A DNA stretch of 64,000 nucleotides, from assembly GCF_020037125.1 (NCBI RefSeq), contig NZ_JAIQDG010000034.1, positions 1 through 64,000 of the forward strand. Direction: 5' to 3'. This DNA comes from Myxococcus sp. RHSTA-1-4 (lineage in GTDB: Bacteria > Myxococcota > Myxococcia > Myxococcales > Myxococcaceae). A model generated the notes under the pieces. The model did no database searches, had not been told where the DNA came from, and saw nothing but the letters and a program-made list of their open reading frames with translations. Both the position numbers and the translations under genes were made by a program. Shown here piece after piece: positions 7,911 to 25,254 of the stretch; the stretch's first letter is position 1; each line of letters opens with the position of its first letter.

Positions 7911-8396
7911 CTACCTGCGCGAGCTGCTCCGGCTGCTCTTGCGGCCGCCACTCCGGCTCCGGCTGGTGGTGCTCCGGCGGCTGACGCCGCGCGAGCCCGC
8001 CCGGGAGCGGCTGCTCGTGGAGGAGCGCTTCGCGGTGACGCGGCGCCCCGCGGTGCCACGCGCGGTGGACTTGCTGCCCGAGCGCATGGAGCGGGTGGTG
8101 CGCGTGGGCCTCCGGGTCCGGCCAGCGGCCGCGGACTTCCGCTGCGCGGCGCGCGCCTTGCCGCCCCTGCTGCCCGCCTTCCTCGCGTTCTTCCGCGCGG
8201 TGGGACGGCGGCGCGCGGCCTTGGCCTTGCTGCCGGAGCCCCCCTTCATGCCGCCACCGGTGAGCTTGTTGACGGTGGCCCAGGCGCGGGACTCCGCCGT
8301 CTTCCCGGACGTGCCGCGCTTCTCGTAGCCCTCCTCGATGTGCCGGGCCATCCGCTTCTGCTTCGCCGAGTACTTCGCCTTGCTTCCACGTGCCAT
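7911..8396 (-). CDS. Basic protein with 'plasmid stabilization'-like N-terminus and histone H1-like tail
   Basis: A 161-aa protein. ATG 8396 is chosen over a much longer open frame because AGGAGG lies just upstream. Residues 1-50 (ARHIEEGYEKRGTSGKTAESRAWATVNK and a GGGMKGGSG end) match a short domain common in small proteins often named plasmid stabilization proteins. From ~52 on, the chain is made almost only of Arg, Lys, Ser, Thr, Ala and Gly, like the SPKK-type tails of histone H1/HC1 or H-NS-like proteins, and should bind nucleic acid without fixed structure. A chromatin- or RNA-coating role is plausible but not shown. It is convergent with the HAD gene and divergent from the EF-hand lipoprotein gene. 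Confidence 0.75.
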   Translation of the reverse strand: MARGSKAKYSAKQKRMARHIEEGYEKRGTSGKTAESRAWATVNKLTGGGMKGGSGSKAKAARRRPTARKNARKAGSRGGKARAAQRKSAAAGRTRRPTRTTRSMRSGSKSTARGTAGRRVTAKRSSTSSRSRAGSRGVSRRSTTSRSRSGGRKSSRSSSRR

Positions 8397-8619
8397 GCGT
8401 TCCCTCCTGGCAGGTTCGGCGCCGGCGTGGAGCCAGCGTCGGCTGCAAGGTGGGTCGCCCCCTGCCCGTACGGAAGTGGGCATCCGGCCACGGGTGTCCA
8501 CCCCGGAACGGCGGGGCCTCCGGACGCGCGCGGAAATTCCCCCCGCAACTTCTCCGCGGAGGCCGGGTTCATGGAGCCAGGGCCGGAACACACAGCACCT
8601 CGAACCCTGGAGAAAACCC

Positions 8620-9489
8620 ATGAACCGCACGTCTGCCCACCGCCGTCTCCTCACCGCCGCGCTCTGCTTCGCCCTGCCCCTGGGGCTCGCCGCCTGTGGA
8701 GACGGCAACACCTCCGAGGAGGAGCTCCATGTCGGCGAGGCCGCCGCCTTCCTCGAGTCCTCCGAGGAGGGAGGCAGCATCGGCGCGGACGCGGTGGCGG
8801 ACGCGGACACCACGACGGTGCAGTCGATTGCGGCCGAGGAGGTGGACGGCCTCAACCAGGAGCCGGTGGACACCGGCAGCGTGTGTGACTTCAGCGCCCG
8901 CCGGCAGGCGGTGCTGGAGAAGTACGACGACAACGGGGACGGCACGCTGAGCCGCGCGGAGCTGGCGGAGCTGAAGGCGGACCTGGGCGAGCGGCGCGAC
9001 ACCATCCGCCCGCGCCTGGCACAGGTGGGCCTGCGCGCGCGGCACTGGGCCTTCTGGCGCGTGCGCTGGGCCTTCGACGAGGACGGCAGCGGCACGCTGT
9101 CCGCCGAGGAGCGCGCCGAGCTGGTGGACGCCATGGAGGCCCGCTGCGAGCGGCTGCGCGCGGAGCGGCTGGAGCGGTTCGACACCAACGGCGACGGCAA
9201 GCTGGACGAGGCGGAGCGCCAGGCCGCGCGGCAGGCGGTGCTCGCCCGCTGGCAGGCGAAGCGCCAGGAGCTGCTGGCCACGTACGACACCAACGGCAAC
9301 AACGTGCTGGACGACGGTGAGCGCCTCGCGCTGCGCCAGGACCGGATTGCCGCCGCCCAGGAGCGCCGCGCGACGCTGCTGGCCACCTACGACACCAACG
9401 GCGACGGCGTGCTGAGCACGGCGGAGGCCCTGCCGCTGCGTGAGGAAATCCAGCGCCGCATCATCGAGGGACGCGACGCCGAGGACTGA
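8620..9489 (+). CDS. EF-hand lipoprotein with five calcium-binding loops
   Basis: A 289-aa lipoprotein precursor. ATG 8620 has GGAG upstream and begins a signal peptide ending in LAAC (Cys27 or so), so the frame open since 8338 is not used. The acidic N-terminal linker (residues ~30-85) leads to five EF-hand loops: DDNGDGTLSRAE, DEDGSGTLSAEE, DTNGDGKLDEAE, DTNGNNVLDDGE and DTNGDGVLSTAE. All carry the Dx[DN]xDG pattern except the fourth, where Asn replaces the third Asp and Gly is lost. Helices between them are Arg/Glu-rich. It probably binds calcium at the cell surface or in the periplasm. A strong terminator follows directly. Confidence 0.9.
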   Translation: MNRTSAHRRLLTAALCFALPLGLAACGDGNTSEEELHVGEAAAFLESSEEGGSIGADAVADADTTTVQSIAAEEVDGLNQEPVDTGSVCDFSARRQAVLEKYDDNGDGTLSRAELAELKADLGERRDTIRPRLAQVGLRARHWAFWRVRWAFDEDGSGTLSAEERAELVDAMEARCERLRAERLERFDTNGDGKLDEAERQAARQAVLARWQAKRQELLATYDTNGNNVLDDGERLALRQDRIAAAQERRATLLATYDTNGDGVLSTAEALPLREEIQRRIIEGRDAED

Positions 9490-9556
9490 CGCCTCGCTCA
9501 CCGGAAGACGCGGGAGCGCGGCACCGTCAACGGATTCCCCCTGTGCCCTGCCCCGT

Positions 9557-9590
9557 CCCCGGGTCGCCCTCCAGGCGGCCCGGGGTTTCT
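9557..9590 (+). terminator. Rho-independent terminator after the EF-hand lipoprotein gene
   Basis: A 12-bp stem with one G-T wobble, 9557-9568 with 9574-9585, has a 5-nt loop and is followed by TTTCT. The convergent SCO gene ends inside it at 9589. Confidence 0.75.
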
Positions 9591-10200
9591 ACCTGGGTGA
9601 CGTGAGCGCGGTGAGCCGCTCCTGGAGTCCCTCCAGCGGCGCGTCGGGCCCGGCGAGCCGCGTGTCGATGACGCCCTCCGCGTCGAGCAGCGTGATGACC
9701 GACTCGTGGTTCATCCCGCCTCCGGGCACCGTCCGGTAGCGGATGCCCAGGACGGCGGCCACGTCCCGCACACCCGCCTCGTCCGTGCGCAGCAGGCGCC
9801 AGCGCTCCGGGTCCACCCCATGCGTCCGGACCAGCCGCGTCATCGCCTCCGGGGTGTCGCGGGCGGGGTCCAGGCTGACGAGCACGATGCGGACGCGGGC
9901 CCGGGCCTCGGGCGTCATCCCCGCCGCGATGCGCTTGAGCCGCGCGAAGAGCAGCGGGCAGGCCAGGGGGCAGGTGCCGTAGAACATGCTGAGCAGCACC
10001 GGCTGTCCCCGGAAGTCCTCCAGCCGCACGGCCTGGCCATCCTGGTCCGTGAAGTCCGTCTTCAGTTGATACAGCGACAGCTCCGGCAGCGCGCGGGCCG
10101 TGCCTGCTGACTCGGCCTTCGCCGCCCGCGCGCGGGGTGGAGGCTCGGCGGCGCTCGGGGTGGCGAGTGCCAGCAGGACGGCCAGGATGTGCTTTCTCAT
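9589..10200 (-). CDS. SCO1/SenC-family copper chaperone
   Basis: A 203-aa exported protein. ATG 10200 overlaps the stop of nirV (ATGA). An N-terminal hydrophobic signal segment (residues ~3-18) ending in SAAEP is followed by a thioredoxin fold. The copper-binding CxxxC is in GTCPLACP, and the distal His is in GGGMNHES, both hallmarks of SCO/SenC proteins, which hand copper to cuproenzymes such as the CuA site of cytochrome oxidase. As the third gene of the nirK-nirV-SCO operon, its likely client is the copper nitrite reductase. That assignment is inferred from the coupling. Confidence 0.88.
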   Translation of the reverse strand: MRKHILAVLLALATPSAAEPPPRARAAKAESAGTARALPELSLYQLKTDFTDQDGQAVRLEDFRGQPVLLSMFYGTCPLACPLLFARLKRIAAGMTPEARARVRIVLVSLDPARDTPEAMTRLVRTHGVDPERWRLLRTDEAGVRDVAAVLGIRYRTVPGGGMNHESVITLLDAEGVIDTRLAGPDAPLEGLQERLTALTSPR

Positions 10201-11006
10201 GGTGCTCCTCCCGCCAGGTCCCGCGCGCAGCGGAACCCGAGGTTGCCTGTCGTGTATGCCGCCTGCAGCGAGCCCCGGAAGGCGAGCCGCATGAAGCTCG
10301 CGTAGTCGCCCTTCTCCCCCGAGGAGAGCGCGCCGGCCCCGCAGAAGCGGGAGGTGCCCGCGGGCGAGCCCTCCCGGCTGTCCTCGCTGACGAGCGTGTT
10401 GCCGAAGTCCAGCACCCACTCCCAGATGAGCCCGTGCAGGTCCTTCACTCCCCAGACATTGGCCTCCGTCCGCCCGACGGGCGGAAGCACGCGGGGCGTG
10501 GGCCGCGAGTACCAGCGCAGCAGCTGCTCGCGGAAGGCCTCCGTGTCGCGCGCATCCACCTCGGTCCGGCTCGCCGACGCGGCGAACTCCCACTCCGCCT
10601 CCGTGGGCAGCCGGGCGCCCCGCGCTTCGCAGTACGCCCGCGCCGCGAACCAGCTCACGCCCACCACCGGGGCGTCCGGAGCGGCGTCCGGGCCGGGCCG
10701 CAGCGGCCCCGCCCAGTGGCGCAGGTAGCCCGCGTCCGCGAAGAGCCGGGGCACCGCCCCCCGCCGCCAGGTGGGCGCCTGGCGCACGAAGGCGAGGAAC
10801 TCCGCGTTCGTCACCGGCACCCGGTCCATCCAGAAGGCCGCCACCGGCACCCGTTGCTCCTCGGGGCTGGGGACGTACACGGGACGCAGCGTGCCGGGGC
10901 CGACCTTCACCATGCCGCGCGGCGGAGGCTCGGCGCGCGCGGCGGTGCCGGTGAGCCCCAGCAGCCCCGCCACGAGCGCGCCCGTCTTGAAGTGGCCCCG
11001 GCTCAA
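10197..11006 (-). CDS. nirV: NirV-like protein, SUMF1/formylglycine-generating-enzyme fold
   Basis: A 269-aa protein. TTG 11006 is chosen because it overlaps the nirK stop (TTGA) and starts a signal-peptide-like stretch ([16 protein letters not shown]). Hallmarks of the SUMF1/FGE-sulfatase domain run in order: [55 protein letters not shown] and the ending GFRCAR. The active-site cysteine pair of true FGE is not evident, so it is unlikely to be a sulfatase activator. NirV proteins of this fold are co-transcribed with nirK in Rhodobacter and others, with no agreed role. Translation is coupled on both sides (nirK and SCO). Confidence 0.85.
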
Positions 11007-12541
11007 TGTGCCGCTCCGGCGGGACGCGTGGTCGTGGCGCGCACCTCGGCCACCTCCGCCGCCGTGACGGCGTCGCCCCGGTTGCCCCACGTATTGCGGA
11101 CGTAGGTGAGGATGTCGGCCACCTCGTCGTCGTTGAGCTGGCTCATGGGGGGCATCACCGAGTTGTACGTCTTGCCCCGGACCTGCACGGGGCCACTCAT
11201 CCCGTTGAGCACGATGCCGATGGAGCGGCGCTTGTCCGCCATGAGGTAGTCCGACTGCGCCAGCGGCGGGAAGACGTCGGGCAGGCCCTGGCCCTCGTTC
11301 TGGTGGCAGACGGAGCAGGTGCCCGCGAAGAGCGTCTTGCCGGCGGCAATCTGCTCCTCGAGGGACACCTTCCCCTGGCTGCGCTTCTGCGTGGCCTGCT
11401 CGACGGCGGCCGAGGGCGTGGCCTTGTCGGCGAGGTACACCGAGTCCACCTCCTTGCCGGAGTAGACGTCCTTGCGCTCGGGGCCCTCCACCTTGAGCAT
11501 TCCGAGCGCGCCCTTGTTGAAGGCACGGAAGATGGAGTGGTCCACCAGCACGTAGGTGCCCGGCGCCTCCAGGGTGAAGTCGACGATGGCCGAGCCGCCC
11601 GCGGGCACCAGCGTCGTCTGGACGTTCTCCTGGTAGCGCGTGCCGCCCTCCGTGTAGACGCGGTCGAAAATCTCTCCGATGACGTGGAAGCTGCTGACGA
11701 GGTTGGGGCCGCCGTTGCCGAAGAAGATGCGCACGCGCTCGCCCACCCGCGCCTGCAGCGCGTTGTCACCCACCAGCGCGCCCTCGGAGCCGTTGAAGAG
11801 GACGTACGTCGCGTTCTCCTCGATGGCCTTCTGCATGTCGAAGGGCTGCAGGCCCTTCTCGCGGTACTTGCCCACCGTGTAGAAGTCGCCCTGCACCACG
11901 TAGAACTCGCGGTCCACCGGCGGCAGCCCCTCGGGAGGCTCCACGAAGATGAGGCCGTACATGCCATTGGCGATGTGCATGCCCACCGGGGCCGTGGCGC
12001 AGTGGTAGATGTAGAGCCCCTGGTTGAGCGCCTTGAAGGTGAACTGGGACTCGTGGCCCGGCGCGGTGAAGCTGCTCGTCGCGCCGCCGCCGGGGCCGGT
12101 GACGGCATGCAGGTCGATGTTGTGCGGCATCTTGCTGCTCGGGTGATTGCGCAGGTGGAACTCCACCGTGTCGCCCTGGCGCACCCGGATGAACTTGCCC
12201 GGCACCTGCCCGCCGAACGTCCAGAAGGTGTAGTCCACGCCATCCGACATCCGCATCACCTTCTCCAGGACCTCCAGCTCCACGACGACGCGGGCGGGGG
12301 AGGTGCGGCGCGGCGCGGCGGGGACCGCGGGGGCGTCGGTGAGCTCGGCGTGCACCGCCGGGCCCTGGGGTGGACCGAAGTCGCCTCGCGCCGAGCCGCC
12401 CGTGTCCACAGGCGGGCTGGCCGTGGCGGACCGAGCGGCGGCGCGTGACGTGGAGCCTGTCGCGCCGTCGGCCTGCGTACACCCGACGTTCCAGCTGGCC
12501 AGGAGCAATGCGCCGATACAGCAGAGTGGGCGGGTGAGCAT
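11003..12541 (-). CDS. nirK: Copper-containing nitrite reductase with C-terminal cytochrome c domain
   Basis: A 512-aa lipoprotein precursor that reduces nitrite to nitric oxide. ATG 12541 has AAAGGAG upstream and starts a signal peptide with lipobox NVGC. Two cupredoxin domains follow. The type 2 copper and active-site Asp/His region is [14 protein letters not shown], the type 1 copper ligands are in [16 protein letters not shown], and the second-domain His is in SSFHVIGE. After ~residue 390 comes a linker and a class I cytochrome c domain with CSVCH heme attachment and a distal Met in VMPPMSQL, which would pass electrons directly to the type 1 copper. The frame stays open to 12850, but that extension has no ribosome binding site. 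It is first in an operon with nirV and a SCO gene. Confidence 0.93.
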
Positions 12542-13247
12542 GTGCGACTCCTTTGCGCGCGAGCGCAAGGTGACGGGGCATGAGTCCGGGAGTGCCCTGC
12601 CAGGTGGGGTGGGACTGTCGAGGCCGGCTGCGAAGCACATGCCACCGGGCACGGCGGTGTCCTTCGCTCGGAAGCACGCCAGGCCCACGAGAGCGGCGGC
12701 GTAACCGGTGCGCTCGCGAGGACGAACGCGCGGGTTCTTGCGCGCGCACGGCGTCCTTGAAGGAAGGACGCATCCCCGGGGCCCTCGCGAGGCGGCCACG
12801 GGCGCGAGACGGAAAGCGGGCGCCGCATTCGCGCGCCGCATAGCCGACATTCCTCCGCCTCGGGTCAGACAGTGAGCGTGCCCGGCGGAGGACGGGCCTG
12901 GCGGGACAGCGCTCCTACTGACTCGCAGCGGCGGCCCTTCACGTGCGCGAGGAACAGGCGCTCGCGCGGCCTCCCGTTCAAAACATGTATTTTAAATGCA
13001 TATTTTGCGCGGCCTGCTCCAGGGACCTGCCCCCACGGCGCATCTCCGCCGGACCACCGGTGGAGCGCACGGCCTCCGGGGCGTCCTCCGGGCGGCCCGG
13101 GGCGTTTCCCTTTCAGACACTTCCCGCTGACCACCTCCCGGCAGGGCCGCTGGCCTGCCTGCCCCGGCGTGCACACCTTGAAAGACGACACGGAAAGAGA
13201 GGTCGCACCTGGAACCCGCCCTCATCCAGCCCCCTCGACGCCGGGCC
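12542..13247. other. 706-bp intergenic region between nirK and the lipid kinase gene
   Basis: No open frame here has a convincing start, ribosome binding site or recognisable protein; the open frames on both strands look like GC-rich noise. The one clear signal is an AT-rich island at about 12979-13006 with the NsrR-like palindrome. If that marks the nirK promoter, the nirK leader would be ~440 nt long. A GAGAGG at 13195-13201 sits 7 nt before an in-frame CTG at 13209 of the kinase gene. Confidence 0.6.
12985..13001. promoter_or_regulatory. NsrR-like nitric-oxide-responsive operator
   Basis: ATGTATTTTAAATGCAT is two 8-bp half-sites around one base and matches the NsrR consensus core ATGYATTT-N-AAATRCAT at every position. 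It is the most AT-rich spot in the region. On the nirK strand a TAAAAT (-10-like) lies inside it. NsrR is an Rrf2-family Fe-S repressor released by nitric oxide and a known regulator of nirK operons in other bacteria. The distance to nirK (444 bp) is long, and no nsrR gene is in the window. Confidence 0.6.
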
Positions 13248-14180
13248 GTGGACGACGGGCCGGCGGTGCTGGTGGTCAACACCCGCTCCCGCTCGGGCCG
13301 AGAGGCCTTCGACACCGCCCGGGCCACGCTCGCCGCGCGCGGGGTGCCGCTGGCGGAGTGCTACGCGCTGTCCCGCTCCGAGCGCCTGCAACACGTGCTG
13401 GAGCGGATGACGGAGCTGGGCGCGCGCCGCATCCTCCTGGGCGGTGGCGACGGCACGCTGAGCTGCGCGGTGGCGCGCCTCCTCGGCCGTGACGTGACGC
13501 TGGGCGTGCTGCCGCTGGGCACCGGCAACGACTTCGCGCGCTCGCTGGGAATCCCTCCAGACGTGGAGGCCGCTTGCGGCATCATCGCCGACGGCTACAC
13601 CGCGCGCGTGGACGTGGGGCTGGCCAACGGGCGCCCCTTCCTCAACGCGGCCAGCCTGGGCCTGGCCACCGCCATCGCGAAGCGGCTGACGAAGCGCCTC
13701 AAGCAGCGCGCGGGAAAGCTGGCCTACCCGGTGGCCGCCGCCGCGGAGATGAAGGACCTCCAGCCCTTCCACGTGCGCCTGAAGGCGGATGACCAGGAGC
13801 TGGAGCTGGACGCGCTGCAGCTCGTGGTGGGCAATGGCCGCTACCACGGCGCGGGCAACGTCGTCTCACCAGATGCACAACTGGATGACAGGCGCCTCCA
13901 CGTGTACGCCATCACCGCGCCCTCCGCCGCGACGGGCAGCGAGGGCACCGGCCTGGGTCACCTGCGGGACGTGGCCACCCTGGCGCGCGTGGCGCTGTCG
14001 TTGCGCAGCGGCGAGCACGTGGAGCACCCGGCCGTGACGACGCTGCGCGCCGCGCGCCTGTTCGTGGAGACCGACCCCGTCCAGGAGGTGAACGCGGACG
14101 GAGAGCTCATCGGCCGCACGCCCATGCGCTTCGAGGTGGCGCCGGCGGCCCTGCGCGTCTACGCGCCCGCCCCGTCCTGA
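13248..14180 (+). CDS. Diacylglycerol/lipid kinase family protein (YegS/DgkB-like)
   Basis: A 310-aa protein with the catalytic N-terminal domain of the DAGK family. The nucleotide-binding motif is LGGGDGTLS at about residues 64-72, followed by LPLGTGNDFARSLGIP, the hallmark of lipid kinases of the YegS/DgkB/BmrU type. The C-terminal beta-sandwich domain has VVGNGRYHGAGN and ends with NADGELIGRTPMRFEV, the usual closing motif. Such enzymes phosphorylate diacylglycerol, sphingoid bases or phosphatidylglycerol at the membrane. GTG 13248 is taken as the start; it has no good ribosome binding site, and a CTG at 13209 behind GAGAGG would add 13 residues. Lipid specificity is unknown. Confidence 0.88.
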   Translation: MDDGPAVLVVNTRSRSGREAFDTARATLAARGVPLAECYALSRSERLQHVLERMTELGARRILLGGGDGTLSCAVARLLGRDVTLGVLPLGTGNDFARSLGIPPDVEAACGIIADGYTARVDVGLANGRPFLNAASLGLATAIAKRLTKRLKQRAGKLAYPVAAAAEMKDLQPFHVRLKADDQELELDALQLVVGNGRYHGAGNVVSPDAQLDDRRLHVYAITAPSAATGSEGTGLGHLRDVATLARVALSLRSGEHVEHPAVTTLRAARLFVETDPVQEVNADGELIGRTPMRFEVAPAALRVYAPAPS

Positions 14181-19400: not shown

Positions 19401-19566
19401 GCAGGCCCGGGCCTCCAGGGGACGCCACCACCGCTCCGCCGGCCCGGCGCGTGGCCCTTGGGCTTCCCTCCTCGGTAGGGCCCCCGTCTTTCCCATGCGT
19501 GGCCCGGGCCGGCGTTGTCATCCTCCGGAGGGCGGCACCATCCTGCTTACCTTGGGTGTTGGGAGG

Positions 19567-22500
19567 ATGATGAAACCAGAGCTCCAGGCGTATGCGTTGG
19601 GCGAGCGGCTCCAGGCGGGGCACCGGGCGAGCGTCCATCACGCCGTGCGGACCTCCGATGGACGCGCGCTCCTCCTCAAGGTCCTCGAGCCTGAGCACAG
19701 CCGCCCGGAGGACCTCGAGCGGCTGAGGAGGGAATACGAGGTGGGGCGTGCGCTCGCGGGCCTGGCCGTCGTCGAGCCGCTCGCCCTCTCGACGTTCGAG
19801 GGGCGGCCGGCGCTCGAGCTCGAGGACTTCCCGGGCGCTCCCCTCGAGAAGCTCGTGGGCGCGCCGATGCCCGTCGGGGACTTCCTTCGCCTGGCGGTGC
19901 GTCTGGCCGGGATTGTCGCTGACATCCACGAGCGGGGCGTCATCCACAGGGAGCTCAAGCCGGGAAACATCCTCTTGGACCCCAGGAGTGGCGAGCTCAA
20001 GGTCTGGAACTTCAGCATCGCCGCGCGCGGCACACGGGAGCAGCCCCCTCCCCGCGCCGCGCGGCTCATCGAGGGGGCGCTCCCCTACATGTCGCCGGAG
20101 CAGACGGGCCGGATGAACCGCTCCGTGGACAGCCGCTCCGACCTCTACGCCCTCGGCGTCACCTTCTACGAGCTGCTCACGGGGCGCCGTCCCTTCGCTG
20201 CGCGCGACCCCCTGGAATGGGTGCACTGCCACGTCGCCCGCACTCCGCCCGCCCCTTCCGCGCTCGTTCCCGGCCTCCCGGGCGTCCTCTCGGACATCGT
20301 CCTCAGGCTCCTGGCCAAGCTGGCGGAGGAGCGGTACCAGACCGCGCGCGGGCTCCAGCACGACCTCGAGCGCTGTCTGTCCGGCTGGGAGGCGAAAGGC
20401 ACGCTCGCGCCCTTTGCCCTGGGAACGCACGATGTCTCGGACCGCTTCGAGCTGCCCCACAAGCTCTATGGCCGCGAGGCCGAGCGCACCGAGCTCCTTC
20501 GTACCTTCAAGCGGGTCGTCGAGCAGGGGACCCCGGAGCTCGTGCTGGTGTCGGGGTACTCGGGCATTGGCAAGTCCTCGCTGGTCCGTGAGCTGCACAG
20601 GCCCATCGTGCGGGAGCGCGGGTTCTTCATCTTCGGCAAGTTCGACCAATACCGGCGAGACGTGCCGTACTCCCCCTTCGCCCAGGCGTTCGCCGAGCTG
20701 ATAGAGCAGATTCTCACCGAAAGCGAAGCGAGCGTGGCCGCCTGGAGGGAGCAGCTGCGGCAGGCGCTTGGCGCGAGCGCGCAGCTCATCATCGACATCA
20801 TCCCTCACGTGGAGCTGATTCTCGGCCCGCAGCCCGCGCTTCCTCCGCTCCCTCCGCTCGAAGCGCAGAACCGCTTCCACCGGGTGTTCCGCCAGTTCAT
20901 CAGCGTCTTCGCGCGCGAGGAGCACCCCCTCGCCCTGTTCCTCGACGACCTCCAGTGGCTCGACTCCGGGAGCTTGAAGCTCCTCGAGGACCTCCTCCTC
21001 CACCCGCAGACCCGCTACCTCCTCCTCCTGGGCGCGTACCGCGACAACGCGGTGGGCCCCTCCCACCCCCTCGCGCTCATGCTCGACACCCTCCGGAAGT
21101 CCGGCGCGCGCGTGCACGAGCTCGTCCTCGCCCCCCTCACCGTCGAGCACCTGGGACAGTTCCTCGCGGAGGCCCTGCGCTGCTCCCCCGGCTCCGCCGC
21201 GCCCCTGGCCCGCCTCGTCCACGAGAAGACCGCCGGCAATCCCTTCTTCGCCATCCAGTTCCTCACCACGCTCCACGAGGAGGGCCTGCTGGAGTTCGAC
21301 CGCGGCACCTCCCGGTGGCGCTGGGACGTGGCGAAGATTCACGCCAAGGGCCTCACCGACAACGTCGTCGACCTCATGGTGCGGAAGCTCAAGCGCCTCC
21401 CACCCGCCACACAGGAGGTGTTGAAGCTCGCCGCATGCGTCGGAAACACCACGGACCTGCACACCCTGGCCGTCATCTCCAACCAGCCGGGCGAGCAGAC
21501 CGCGCGTGCGCTCTCGGACGCGGTCCGGGAAGGGCTGGTGCTCCAGCAGGGCGACGTCTACACGTTCCTGCACGACCGCGTCCAGCAGGGGGCCTATGCG
21601 CTCATCGAGGATGAGAGGAAGAAGGGCGTCCATCTCCGCATCGGGCGTCTGCTGCTGGCGAGCCTGGACGCACGGAGCATCGAGGAGCGCATCTTCGACG
21701 TCGTCGGCCAGCTCAACCGCGGCCTTGCCCTCATCACCGACCCGGCGGAGAGGGACGCGCTCGCGAGGCTCAACTTCCTCGCGGGAAGGAAGGCGAAGGC
21801 GTCCATCGCCTATACCTCCGCGAGGAACTTCCTCGCCGTCGCGGCGGCCCTCCTGCCCGAGGGTGCCTGGGAGTCCCGCTACGACGTCGCGTTCCCCCTC
21901 TTCATCGAGCGCGCGGAGTGCGAGTACCTGGGCGGCGCGTTCGAGCAGGCCGAGACCCTGTTCGACGTCCTCCTCGCCCGCGCGAGGACCGACTGCGACA
22001 AGGCCACGGTGTACGAGCTCCGCCTGAAGCTCTGCCACGTCGCGGGCAGGTACGACGAGGCGGTGGCGATGGCGTGCAAGGCCCTTCAGCTCTTTGGTGT
22101 GGACATCCCCGAGGACGACGCGGTGCTGAGCGAGGCGACCCGCGCCGAGGCGGAGGCCATCCAGGTCAACCTGGGCGGGCGCCGCATCGCGGACCTCGCG
22201 GATGCCGCCGAGGCCACCGACCCGCGCGTCAGGGCCGTCATCGGTCTGCTCTCGAACGTGGCCCCTGCCGCCTACATTGGCAGCAGGCCCCAGGTCTTCC
22301 CGCTCGTCATCCTGAAGCTCGTCAATCACTCCCTCCGGTTCGGCCACACGTACGAATCCTGCGTGGGGTACAGCGCCTACGGCTTGATGCTCGTCTCCCT
22401 CTACGATGACCCTCGTGCCGCCTACGAGTTCTCGGAGATGTCCATCAGGCTCAACCAGAAGCTCGGCGACATCAGCCGGCGGGGCACGGTCCTGCACTTC

Positions 22501-25254
22501 CACGGCGACCACATCAACTTCTGGAGCCGTCACATCTCGACGGACTTCCCCATCCTGGAGCGGGGATTCCTCGCATGCCTGGATGCGGGCGACCTGGTCT
22601 TCGCGAACGCCATCGCGTTCCAGATTGTCTGGCAGGCCATCGAGCGGGGCGATGCCATCGATGATGTCATCCGGTTCTCGCGGAGCTACGCGGCCTTCGC
22701 CCGGGACTCCCGCAACGAACCCATCCACGAGACAATCCGGCTGGAGCAGCAGTTCCTCGCGTGCCTGAAGGGAAGGACTCGCGGGAGTACCTCCTTCGAG
22801 GACGAAGCGTTCCAGGAGGCCCCGTGCGTCGCGAAGATTGCCGGGGCGGCCTTCGGGTGCGGCATCGTCTTCTTCCACATGATGAAGCTCATCACGGCGT
22901 ATCTCGCCGGAGACGACGCCGAGGCGCTCCATCACGCGGACGAAGCGAAGAAGACGCTCAGCGCCGTGCTGGCCATGCCCATGGAGGCGACCTTCTATTA
23001 CTTCCACGCCCTCCTGCTCGCCCGCATCCACCCGCGGAGGACGGAAGAGGAGCAGCGGGAGATTGAGAGGACGCTCGAGGGCTACGACAAGAAGCTCGCC
23101 CTCTGGGCCCGGAGCTGCCCGGAGAACTTCCTCACGAAACACGCCCTCGTGTCCGCGGAGCTCGCCCGAATCACGGGAGACACGCTCCAGGCCGAGCAGC
23201 GCTACGAGGAGGCCATCCGGGCGGCGCGGGCCAACGGCTTCGTCCACTGGGAGGCCATGGCCAACGAGCTTGCCGCGGCGTTCTACCGGGAGCGGCGCTT
23301 CAGGACCATCACCGCCGCCTATCTCCGGGAGGCCCGGGACTGTTACGTCCGGTGGGGCGCGGAAGCGAAGGTGAGGCAGCTCGCGGAGCGCCACGCGCAC
23401 CTTCATGAGGCACCGCCGCCCGGCCTCGCGGCCGTCTTCGCGGCCCGGCCCGAGCAGCTCGACCTGCTCTCGGTGGTCAAGGCCTCGCAGACCATCTCCG
23501 GGGTGATGGTCCGCGAGCAGCTCCTGCACACGCTCTTGCAGGTCGTCCTCGAGCAAGGCGGGGCGCGCCGGGCCCTCCTGGTCCTGTCCCGCGAGGGCGC
23601 GCTCGAGGTCGCGGCCGAGTCCGCCGTGGGCGAGGAGGAGGCGCCGGGCCTGCTGTTCGGCGCGGCCCCGCAAGCGCTGGCGGCACGCGCCCCGGCGTCC
23701 ATCCTGCAGTACGCGCAGCGCACCCGGGAGCACGTGCTGCTTTCCGACGCGGCCGCTGACGCGGAGCGGTTCTCGGGGGACCCGTACTTCGCGCGGGCGC
23801 GCCCGCGCTCTGTCCTCTGCCTCCCCGTCCGCAGGCAGGCGGAGGTCGTCGCCTTCCTCTACCTCGAGAACGACCTCGTCCCCGGCAGCTTCACGCCCGA
23901 GCGCCTGCTGGCGCTCGAGCTGCTCGCGGCCCAGGCGGCCATCTCGCTGGAGAACGCGCTCCTCCTCGAGCGCGAGCATGCCGGCCGCGTGGAGGCCGAG
24001 ACGGCCGGACGGCGTGCGCTCCTGCTCGGAGAGGCGACCGCGCTCATCTCCTCGACGCTCGACTACGTGGGCGTGTTCGACGCGCTGACCCGCCTGTGCG
24101 CGCGCTCGTTCGCCGACTGGGCGGTCGTCGACCTCAACGAGGGGAGCACCGTCATACGCCTGGCGGGCGCACACCGCGACCCGCGGAAGGAGCCGCTCCT
24201 GCGTGAGCTCGCGGAGCGATACCCCGCGCGCCTCGGCACGGCCACGCCGGTGACGACCGTGCTCCAGGGAGGGGCCCCCGTCCACCTGCCGGCCCTCACC
24301 GACGAGCAGATCCGGTCCTACACGCTCGACGAGCACCACGCCGCGCTCATCCGCCGGCTGGGCACGCGGAGCGTGCTCATCGTGCCGCTGATCGCGCGAG
24401 ACACGAAGCTCGGGGCCTTGACGTTCGTGGCGGCCGCTCCGCACTGGTTCGGGACGGCCGACGTGGAGCTGGCGGTGGAGCTGGGCCGCCGCGCGGCGCT
24501 GACCATCGACAACGCGCGCCTGCTCGCCGAGACGCAGCGGGCGCTGCGCCTGCGGGAGGAGTTCCTCACCGTGGCCTCGCACGAGCTGCGCACGCCGCTG
24601 ACCTCGCTCCGGCTCTCGGTGGAGGGCCTGCTCCGCGCGGCCTCGGCCGGGAGGACCGTCTCGACGGAGACGCTGAACCGCGGCCTCGGCCGGGTGCTGA
24701 GCAGGACCGACAGGCTCGAGCAGCTCACCGGGGAACTCCTCGACGTGACGCGCATCGAGCAGGGGCGGCTGGAGCTGAAGCGCGGCGAGGTCGAGCTCGG
24801 CGCGCTGGTGCGCGGCGTGGTGGAGCGCCTCGAGCCCGAGCTGACCGCGGCCCGCTGCACGGTGTCCCTCACGTGCGCCGCGCCGGTGGTGGGGCAGTGG
24901 GATGCCGCGCGGCTCGCGCAGCTCGTGACCCACCTGCTCCACAACGCCCTCAAGTTCGGGCCAGGCAAGCCCATCGAGGTCTTCGTCAGGGAGGAGGCCG
25001 GGAGCGCGCGGCTCGTGGTGAGGGACCACGGAATCGGTATCGCCCCGGAGCGGCAGGGCCACATCTTCGAGCGCTTCGAGCGCGCCGTGTCCAAGAACTA
25101 TGGCGGGCTGGGGCTCGGCCTGTACATCAGCCGCGGGATTGCGGAGTCACACGGCGGTTCCATCCAGGTCCAGAGCGTGCCCGGCGCCGGCTCCACGTTC
25201 ACCGTCACGCTCCCGCGCGTCTGGCGGCCAGCGCTGACGGCGTCGCTCGGCTGA
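19567..25254 (+). CDS. Giant hybrid: pseudokinase - AAA ATPase - helical repeats - two GAF - histidine kinase
   Basis: A 1895-aa signalling protein starting at ATG 19567 behind GGGAGG. Residues ~10-270 are a Ser/Thr kinase fold, but the HRD motif reads HRELKPGN (~126) and DFG reads WNFS (~150), so both key Asp residues are changed. Residues ~300-600 are a predicted ATPase with Walker A GYSGIGKSS and Walker B LALFLDDLQWLD. Helical TPR-like repeats follow to ~1270, then GAF domains at ~1300-1465 and ~1487-1650. The end is a histidine kinase with H box ASHELRTPL (~1671), N box LLHNALKF, G1 DHGIGIAPE and G2 GGLGLGLYIS. There is no receiver. Such chains with an active kinase domain are known in cyanobacteria and myxobacteria. 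No response regulator is adjacent. Confidence 0.92.
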   Translation: MMKPELQAYALGERLQAGHRASVHHAVRTSDGRALLLKVLEPEHSRPEDLERLRREYEVGRALAGLAVVEPLALSTFEGRPALELEDFPGAPLEKLVGAPMPVGDFLRLAVRLAGIVADIHERGVIHRELKPGNILLDPRSGELKVWNFSIAARGTREQPPPRAARLIEGALPYMSPEQTGRMNRSVDSRSDLYALGVTFYELLTGRRPFAARDPLEWVHCHVARTPPAPSALVPGLPGVLSDIVLRLLAKLAEERYQTARGLQHDLERCLSGWEAKGTLAPFALGTHDVSDRFELPHKLYGREAERTELLRTFKRVVEQGTPELVLVSGYSGIGKSSLVRELHRPIVRERGFFIFGKFDQYRRDVPYSPFAQAFAELIEQILTESEASVAAWREQLRQALGASAQLIIDIIPHVELILGPQPALPPLPPLEAQNRFHRVFRQFISVFAREEHPLALFLDDLQWLDSGSLKLLEDLLLHPQTRYLLLLGAYRDNAVGPSHPLALMLDTLRKSGARVHELVLAPLTVEHLGQFLAEALRCSPGSAAPLARLVHEKTAGNPFFAIQFLTTLHEEGLLEFDRGTSRWRWDVAKIHAKGLTDNVVDLMVRKLKRLPPATQEVLKLAACVGNTTDLHTLAVISNQPGEQTARALSDAVREGLVLQQGDVYTFLHDRVQQGAYALIEDERKKGVHLRIGRLLLASLDARSIEERIFDVVGQLNRGLALITDPAERDALARLNFLAGRKAKASIAYTSARNFLAVAAALLPEGAWESRYDVAFPLFIERAECEYLGGAFEQAETLFDVLLARARTDCDKATVYELRLKLCHVAGRYDEAVAMACKALQLFGVDIPEDDAVLSEATRAEAEAIQVNLGGRRIADLADAAEATDPRVRAVIGLLSNVAPAAYIGSRPQVFPLVILKLVNHSLRFGHTYESCVGYSAYGLMLVSLYDDPRAAYEFSEMSIRLNQKLGDISRRGTVLHFHGDHINFWSRHISTDFPILERGFLACLDAGDLVFANAIAFQIVWQAIERGDAIDDVIRFSRSYAAFARDSRNEPIHETIRLEQQFLACLKGRTRGSTSFEDEAFQEAPCVAKIAGAAFGCGIVFFHMMKLITAYLAGDDAEALHHADEAKKTLSAVLAMPMEATFYYFHALLLARIHPRRTEEEQREIERTLEGYDKKLALWARSCPENFLTKHALVSAELARITGDTLQAEQRYEEAIRAARANGFVHWEAMANELAAAFYRERRFRTITAAYLREARDCYVRWGAEAKVRQLAERHAHLHEAPPPGLAAVFAARPEQLDLLSVVKASQTISGVMVREQLLHTLLQVVLEQGGARRALLVLSREGALEVAAESAVGEEEAPGLLFGAAPQALAARAPASILQYAQRTREHVLLSDAAADAERFSGDPYFARARPRSVLCLPVRRQAEVVAFLYLENDLVPGSFTPERLLALELLAAQAAISLENALLLEREHAGRVEAETAGRRALLLGEATALISSTLDYVGVFDALTRLCARSFADWAVVDLNEGSTVIRLAGAHRDPRKEPLLRELAERYPARLGTATPVTTVLQGGAPVHLPALTDEQIRSYTLDEHHAALIRRLGTRSVLIVPLIARDTKLGALTFVAAAPHWFGTADVELAVELGRRAALTIDNARLLAETQRALRLREEFLTVASHELRTPLTSLRLSVEGLLRAASAGRTVSTETLNRGLGRVLSRTDRLEQLTGELLDVTRIEQGRLELKRGEVELGALVRGVVERLEPELTAARCTVSLTCAAPVVGQWDAARLAQLVTHLLHNALKFGPGKPIEVFVREEAGSARLVVRDHGIGIAPERQGHIFERFERAVSKNYGGLGLGLYISRGIAESHGGSIQVQSVPGAGSTFTVTLPRVWRPALTASLG

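Follow-up and report, generated by a model that had tools for sequence, protein, structure and literature searches.

A candidate NsrR-type site upstream of nirK in Myxococcus sp. RHSTA-1-4 belongs to an element shared with other denitrification genes

The NsrR regulon of beta- and gamma-proteobacteria is characterized by the palindrome gATGyAT-N5-ATrCATc, and its targets include an NO-detoxifying globin, norB and nirK (Rodionov et al. 2005, PMC1274295). For Neisseria, Chromobacterium and Nitrosomonas, the accessible text of the same study describes NsrR sites, either predicted or established, in front of nirK and norB, in agreement with the first-pass annotation of the DNA described here, which had pointed to NsrR control of nirK elsewhere in the proteobacteria. 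An NsrR site at nirK is thus not new in principle, and Myxococcus is unmentioned in the text of that paper. In Myxococcus xanthus, the Rrf2-family Fe-S repressor RisR binds GAC-N7-GTC at the isc and suf promoters (PMC9973013), and the sigma-54 consensus TGGCACG-N4-TTGC(T/A) has been used for the same species (PMC7910581). No title describing a circuit such as the one proposed below was present among the matches listed for NsrR, sigma-54 and denitrification in myxobacteria, subscription papers being mostly outside reach.

The DNA analysed is a stretch of 64,000 nt from Myxococcus sp. RHSTA-1-4 (the window), within which the palindrome ATGTATTTTAAATGCAT, located at 12985-13001 on the plus strand, fits ATGYATTTNAAATRCAT with 0 mismatches, confirming the first-pass description. 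It is the sole match in the window at up to three mismatches (one of 100 dinucleotide shuffles produced a match) and the sole match in the whole genome of 11,243,509 bases at up to one mismatch, where the reversed pattern gives 0. Its AT-rich character within GC-rich DNA is likewise borne out, the 200-base stretches around it having a GC content of 68-69.5%, and the flanks lengthen the symmetry to CAAAA...TTTTG. Set against the NsrR operator, the palindrome reads ATGTAT-TTTAA-ATGCAT and every inner letter fits, whereas the outermost g and c of the consensus are unmatched (C and A instead). The nirK gene begins at 12541, after AAAGGAG, and the reported distance of 444 bp (12985 minus 12541, the nirK ATG) is correct, leaving 443 nt in between. 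Two aspects of the surroundings had been missed: opposite nirK, the palindrome has on its other side a divergent lipid-kinase gene (13248, plus strand), which it also faces, and TTTTGCGCG, on the kinase side of the palindrome, is part of a conserved element (Table 1).

The nirK product exceeds the 296-bit cut-off for copper nitrite reductase and carries a C-terminal cytochrome c domain (Table 1). Among 80 related nirK loci, a NirV-like gene is present in 77 and a SCO gene in 76, and the order nirK-nirV-sco is seen in the 15 related loci listed. Between nirK and the palindrome, codon periodicity is absent from 12542-13080 (GC by codon position 0.72/0.70/0.69), an Rfam search gives no match inside the interval, two weak matches outside it lying far under their gathering scores, and a search of 12500-13300 for sigma-70-type promoters yielded none. 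No sign of a hidden gene, an RNA family or a sigma-70 promoter was thus seen in the interval, and the suggestion that the distance implies a long leader or an unannotated short gene is not supported. Elsewhere in the window, a plus-strand frame at 8338-9489, adjoining the nirK stretch, encodes a protein with repeated EF-hand motifs, and a very long plus-strand ORF at 19495-25254 looks, by eye, like a fusion of a serine/threonine kinase with ATPase and histidine-kinase portions.

Table 1. Coordinates of features at the nirK locus, numbered within the window
Feature	Position	Strand	Basis
SCO1/SenC-like gene	9589..10203	-	PF02630 69 bits
NirV-like gene, sulfatase-modifying-factor domain; limits are ORF limits	10197..11090	-	PF03781 126 bits
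nirK, copper nitrite reductase with C-terminal cytochrome c domain	11003..12541	-	TIGR02376 361 bits; PF00034 49 bits
Candidate nirK promoter of sigma-54 type, TGGCATGTGCTTCGCA; predicted start near 12618	12629..12644	-	10/12 consensus positions
Extended element AAACATGTATTTTAAATGCATATTTTGCG, common to norZ/nos and nap	12981..13009	+	0 mismatches; 3 genome places, reversed control 0
Palindrome, NsrR-type core	12985..13001	+	exact match, genome-unique at up to 1 mismatch
Divergent YegS-type lipid kinase, not regarded as a target of the site	13248..14180	+	kinase upstream DNA in relatives without site
Stretch missing from six nearest relatives, ~3.5 kb, edges approximate	9590..13075		alignment to relatives
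Terminator-like hairpin, left copy	9559..9590	+	two copies here, one in six relatives
Terminator-like hairpin, right copy	13076..13110	+	two copies here, one in six relatives

The NO reductase gene norZ is present in six of 27 genomes of the genus, the window genome among them, and in all six the palindrome upstream of norZ is followed by TTTTGCGCG, the same flank that is observed at nirK. The combined pattern AAACANGNATTNNNNATGCATNTTTTGCG, at up to three mismatches, is confined to these six norZ carriers among the 27 genomes (reversed control 0), and in the window genome it is located at norZ/nos (0 mismatches), at nirK (0) and before napD-napA (3). NCBIfam has no family for NorZ; Pfam recognises in it COX1 (194 bits) and the cytochrome c-like domain of NorB (218 bits), and among solved structures quinol-type NO reductases come closest (E 1e-242). 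A cytochrome c-nosZ-nosD cluster adjoins norZ in five of the six carriers (all except G002), and the window genome's NosZ and NosD score 845 bits (cut-off 625) and 350 bits (cut-off 300), respectively. For the nap region, examined in the two genomes with an element match, the best family of full-length NapA is periplasmic nitrate reductase at 864 bits, slightly under the cut-off of 904, and napD was identified by eye. We also note that in genome G020 the cytochrome c-nos cluster stands apart, with TGGCACGGGCCTCGCAG following a weaker palindrome before the cytochrome c gene (L150 6767-6842).

Across 195 genomes of the phylum, AAACANGNATTNNNNATGCATNTTTTGCG occurs at 20 distinct places in 17 genomes (reversed control 0), comprising 11 at norZ, two at nap, one at nirK, five at glbN and one, in G067, at none of these. 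Five of the norZ genes belong to a second genus and are 79-81% identical to that of the window genome over the part read. The flank TTTGCG is present at 11/11 norZ, 2/2 nap and the nirK site, and as TTTTGCG it is directed away from nirK, an orientation that it also has relative to nos and to the operon that diverges from nap. Because the same element precedes other genes of nitrate breakdown, here and in several relatives, the palindrome is very probably a working control site linked to nirK, as judged from sequence comparison.

The core of the palindrome has a wider distribution than the extended element. An initial scan for the site gave one match each in 15 of 61 genomes, 13 of which lie in the genus (window included), with G033 in another genus of the family and G050 in the order; besides the window, the match is at glbN in 12 genomes, at norZ in G020 and at neither in G050. 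When the glbN promoter is read in G033 and in each of the 27 genus genomes, the core TGYAT-N5-ATRCA precedes glbN in 28/28 (26 exact, two with one mismatch), compared with 0 exact and one single-mismatch match in 1400 mononucleotide shuffles. A TTGAC hexamer lies ahead of the core at an offset of 16 nt in 22 promoters and 21 nt in two, whereas in G002, G012, G020 and G026 the 40 nt preceding the core contain no TTGAC. To judge from these positions, the glbN layout is that of a repressor site over a promoter, the regulator's own operon included. The flank TTTGCG is seen at 0/28 glbN sites. The expectation that the same site would lie near other NO genes holds for the core at glbN and, in a longer version, for norZ/nos and nap.

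Several variants of the core were observed. In G033 (L009), a tandem pair of palindromes lies ahead of glbN. The window genome's own glbN operator, CTGCATTCAGGATGCAG (G000:C11:67166-67182, L024), deviates from the ATGCATTT type, and the recognition helix of its NsrR is unchanged. Three more matches to TGYAT-N5-ATRCA are present in the window genome (C11:29726, C33:56096 and C123:228182; control 1), and no NO gene was recognised next to any of them. The first of these, TGCATCCGCCATGCA at G000:C11:29726-29740 (L151), which has no obvious NO gene in its context, has an exact copy in G012 (C35:7245) and near copies in G022 and G026. The scan matches in G050 and, from the phylum scan, in G067 were taken as chance, no glbN, norZ, nosZ, nosD or cytochrome c match accompanying them.

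Five Rrf2-family proteins of the window genome score above cut-off. The gene for one of these, at C11:68624-69067, lies behind glbN, which encodes a globin, and the gene for a 2Fe-2S/FAD reductase, giving the operon order glbN-reductase-nsrR. The encoded protein has an Rrf2 domain (PF02082, 124.7 bits, cut-off 30). Aligned with E. coli NsrR over 136 positions, it shows 43% identity and scores 113 bits, compared with 34-58 bits for the other four; its best solved relative is Streptomyces NsrR. Asp8, a cluster ligand of NsrR (PMC9338935), the Cys-X7-Cys-X5-Cys motif and the recognition helix are identical in 27/27 genus genomes. Thus a genome search for an Rrf2/NsrR gene with Fe-S cysteines, which the first-pass annotation had proposed, finds one, and the absence of any Rrf2 NO sensor can no longer be held against the site, since a gene with conserved cluster ligands is present. 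Two scores weigh against the NsrR assignment: the protein misses the NCBIfam NsrR equivalog cut-off (123.4 of 182 bits), and RirA nearly ties (121 of 193 bits). For this reason we use the label NsrR-type. The gene is found in 27/27 genus genomes and in 54 of the 195 phylum-sample genomes, 53 of which belong to the same family. GlbN matches the bacterial-type globin family (PF01152, 69 bits), and its solved relatives include group 1 truncated haemoglobins, and the reductase has Fer2, FAD-binding and NAD-binding domains. The window genome also encodes a SUF-type regulator (136 bits, cut-off 111). RisR was rejected as the binder, its published motif being different (PMC9973013). A protein of the NsrR type probably binds the nirK palindrome, to go by the operator and regulator sequences. 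The proposed tie between an NsrR-type site and nirK is supported by comparison, through the nsrR-type gene and the shared core and element; the long leader or hidden gene is not.

Sigma-54-type promoters lie between the element and the genes that follow it. TGGAAC-N5-TTGCT is located between the element and norZ in 11/11 genomes of two genera (matches with a core of up to four mismatches within 200 nt), with a gap from core to promoter of 72 bp in three, 73 bp in five and 84 bp in three. In the alignment, the extra 11-12 bp fall mostly near the promoter, after a second block, CGCAC-N4-TGC, which is present in 10/11 norZ promoters (G020 has CGCAT). Common ancestry could also account for the shared norZ spacing. 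At napD, TGGTCC-N5-TTGCT lies at 42 and 40 bp in 2/2 genomes, both of which also carry a TGGCATG element in the divergent direction, at 53 and 63 bp, and on the nos side TGGCACG-N4-TCGCA is found at 54, 32, 21 and 22 bp in the four genomes examined with the divergent cluster. In the window genome, norZ and nos fit the consensus at 11/12 positions, the nap-divergent and nirK elements at 10/12 and napD at 9/12.

On the nirK strand, the best sigma-54 match within the 443-nt interval is TGGCATGTGCTTCGCA (the runner-up fits at 7 positions), a candidate promoter ~90-105 nt ahead of nirK. Sites of this quality (GG-N10-GC within TGGCACG-N4-TTGCW) arise in 11/300 shuffles and in 14/1132 overlapping window stretches, and nirK occurs in no second genome of the genus sample; we assign the candidate moderate confidence. 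Given the candidate's position before nirK, the palindrome may act from a distance, and we consider it quite likely that it does so on a sigma-54 promoter. The gap of 341 bp between TGGCATGTGCTTCGCA and the core, compared with 21-84 bp at the other operons, weighs against this arrangement.

The nirK gene is found in 1/27 genus genomes (E up to 1e-30), whereas the lipid kinase is found in 27/27. Against the six relatives whose kinase is most similar, the alignment breaks at window positions 9485-9589 and picks up at 13051-13071, and the palindrome lies inside the missing ~3.5-kb stretch, ~75 nt from its right edge. Gain of this stretch is a simpler reading than loss in 26 genomes. The terminator-like GC hairpin that occurs once in these relatives stands here on either side of the stretch and may mark the mode of insertion. 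Upstream DNA (up to 600 nt, with the start set by co-linearity) was read for the related nirK loci, 77 remaining from 80 after removal of three with too little upstream DNA. A site with two mismatches is present in Ralstonia sp. A12 and Psychrobacter pygoscelis, the other 75 having at least five mismatches, and the reversed control spanned four to eight. A donor carrying the site was not seen among the 77 loci. The 75 of 77 loci without the site weigh against the reading preferred here; they also lead us to infer that the link of the nirK cassette to the host circuit probably dates from its arrival or later.

Taken together, we favour, on balance, a model in which the palindrome is an NsrR-type site of a Myxococcaceae denitrification regulon acting via sigma-54-type promoters. 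In the window genome this regulon would comprise nap, nirK-nirV-sco, and norZ with the divergent cytochrome c-nosZ-nosD cluster. The NO-sensing Fe-S protein encoded in the glbN-reductase-nsrR operon would occupy the palindromes when NO is absent. At glbN, where the site follows the TTGAC hexamer, the bound protein would block the promoter, whereas at the denitrification operons, where the site lies upstream of a sigma-54-type promoter, it would hinder a sigma-54 activator in the enhancer region. Destruction of the cluster by NO would free the site and allow activation. The nirK promoter would then probably be the element at 12644-12629, giving a leader of ~77 nt; the palindrome would act on it from 341 bp upstream.

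The main rival to this model holds that a sigma-54 enhancer-binding protein, either new or similar to NorR, binds the extended element at norZ/nos, nap and nirK, whose core merely looks like that of NsrR, such that the NsrR-type protein controls glbN-nsrR only. The presence of TTTGCG at the norZ, nap and nirK sites but at 0/28 glbN sites, together with the restriction of the element to the 6/27 norZ-carrying genomes when nsrR is in 27/27, leaves room for another binder. In addition, the norZ gaps of 72-73 and 84 bp differ by about one helical turn, and at norZ the right half and flank are kept more strictly than the left half. However, the core retains the half-sites and spacing of NsrR and several sites are full palindromes, the separate CGCAC-N4-TGC block (10/11 norZ) could itself be the activator's own site, and no enhancer-binding protein was recognised by eye among the frames listed around norZ and nap in the window genome. 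We regard a dedicated activator site as rather unlikely. A further, tentative reading is a composite enhancer of the Myxococcaceae, in which the NsrR-type palindrome, the TTTGCG flank and, at norZ, the CGCAC-N4-TGC block might form one unit phased to the sigma-54 promoter, through which either the Rrf2 NO sensor or a new activator of the same site would jointly switch the reduction of nitrate, nitrite, NO and N2O, with the nirK cassette wired in.

Another model takes up the first-pass suggestion of a long nirK leader (~440 nt) or a short gene in between and has NsrR repressing a sigma-70 promoter located at the palindrome. In its favour are the overlap of the glbN sites with a TTGAC-type promoter and the AT-rich hexamers within the palindrome itself. 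It is highly improbable at nirK in view of the lack of a sigma-70-type promoter in 12500-13300 and of codon periodicity or an Rfam match in the interval. Least probable of all, and hardly to be expected, is that the site serves the divergent lipid kinase or that the palindrome arose by chance. The TTTTGCGCG side does look toward the kinase gene, as it does toward norZ and napD, but the kinase is present in 27/27 genomes, its upstream region in the six nearest relatives is without the site-bearing stretch, and the best sigma-54 match on the kinase side fits at 6/12 positions. Chance is unlikely because only one place of the element in 195 genomes is without a recognised NO gene.

The preferred model, an NsrR-type site acting via sigma-54-type promoters, would give a myxobacterium a concrete NO-responsive denitrification circuit with named sites that is open to testing. 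It would unite arrangements that are usually treated separately, namely repressor sites of the NsrR type on the one hand and, on the other, the sigma-54-type promoters that serve NO reductase genes. In addition, a nitrite reductase cassette that was probably gained recently already bears the same regulatory element as the other denitrification genes of its host.

As in the proteobacterial NsrR regulon, at least as far as the accessible text of PMC1274295 describes it, the Myxococcus sites combine the palindrome with globin, nor and nirK targets and a regulator gene near the globin gene. Unlike that regulon, a truncated haemoglobin and a separate reductase replace the flavohaemoglobin, nap and nos also carry sites, and the TTTGCG flank and sigma-54-type promoters are present. 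The pairing of an NO reductase gene with a sigma-54-type promoter and upstream sites is reminiscent of NorR/sigma-54 control (PMC1274295), whereas the upstream site here has an NsrR-type core, and no NorR-like gene was recognised by eye among the frames listed beside norZ in the window genome. With RisR the proposed regulator shares the nature of an Rrf2 Fe-S protein in a myxobacterium, but not the motif GAC-N7-GTC (PMC9973013). The placement of nirK under an NsrR site resembles nirK/aniA control in Neisseria and Nitrosomonas as presented in that text (PMC1274295); here, by contrast, the site is far upstream, the cassette is found in one genome of the genus sample and the candidate promoter is of the sigma-54 type. 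As far as the literature was searched, what is new in Myxococcaceae is the reach of the site across nap, nir, nor and nos in one genome, along with the sigma-54-type promoters and the TTTGCG flank.
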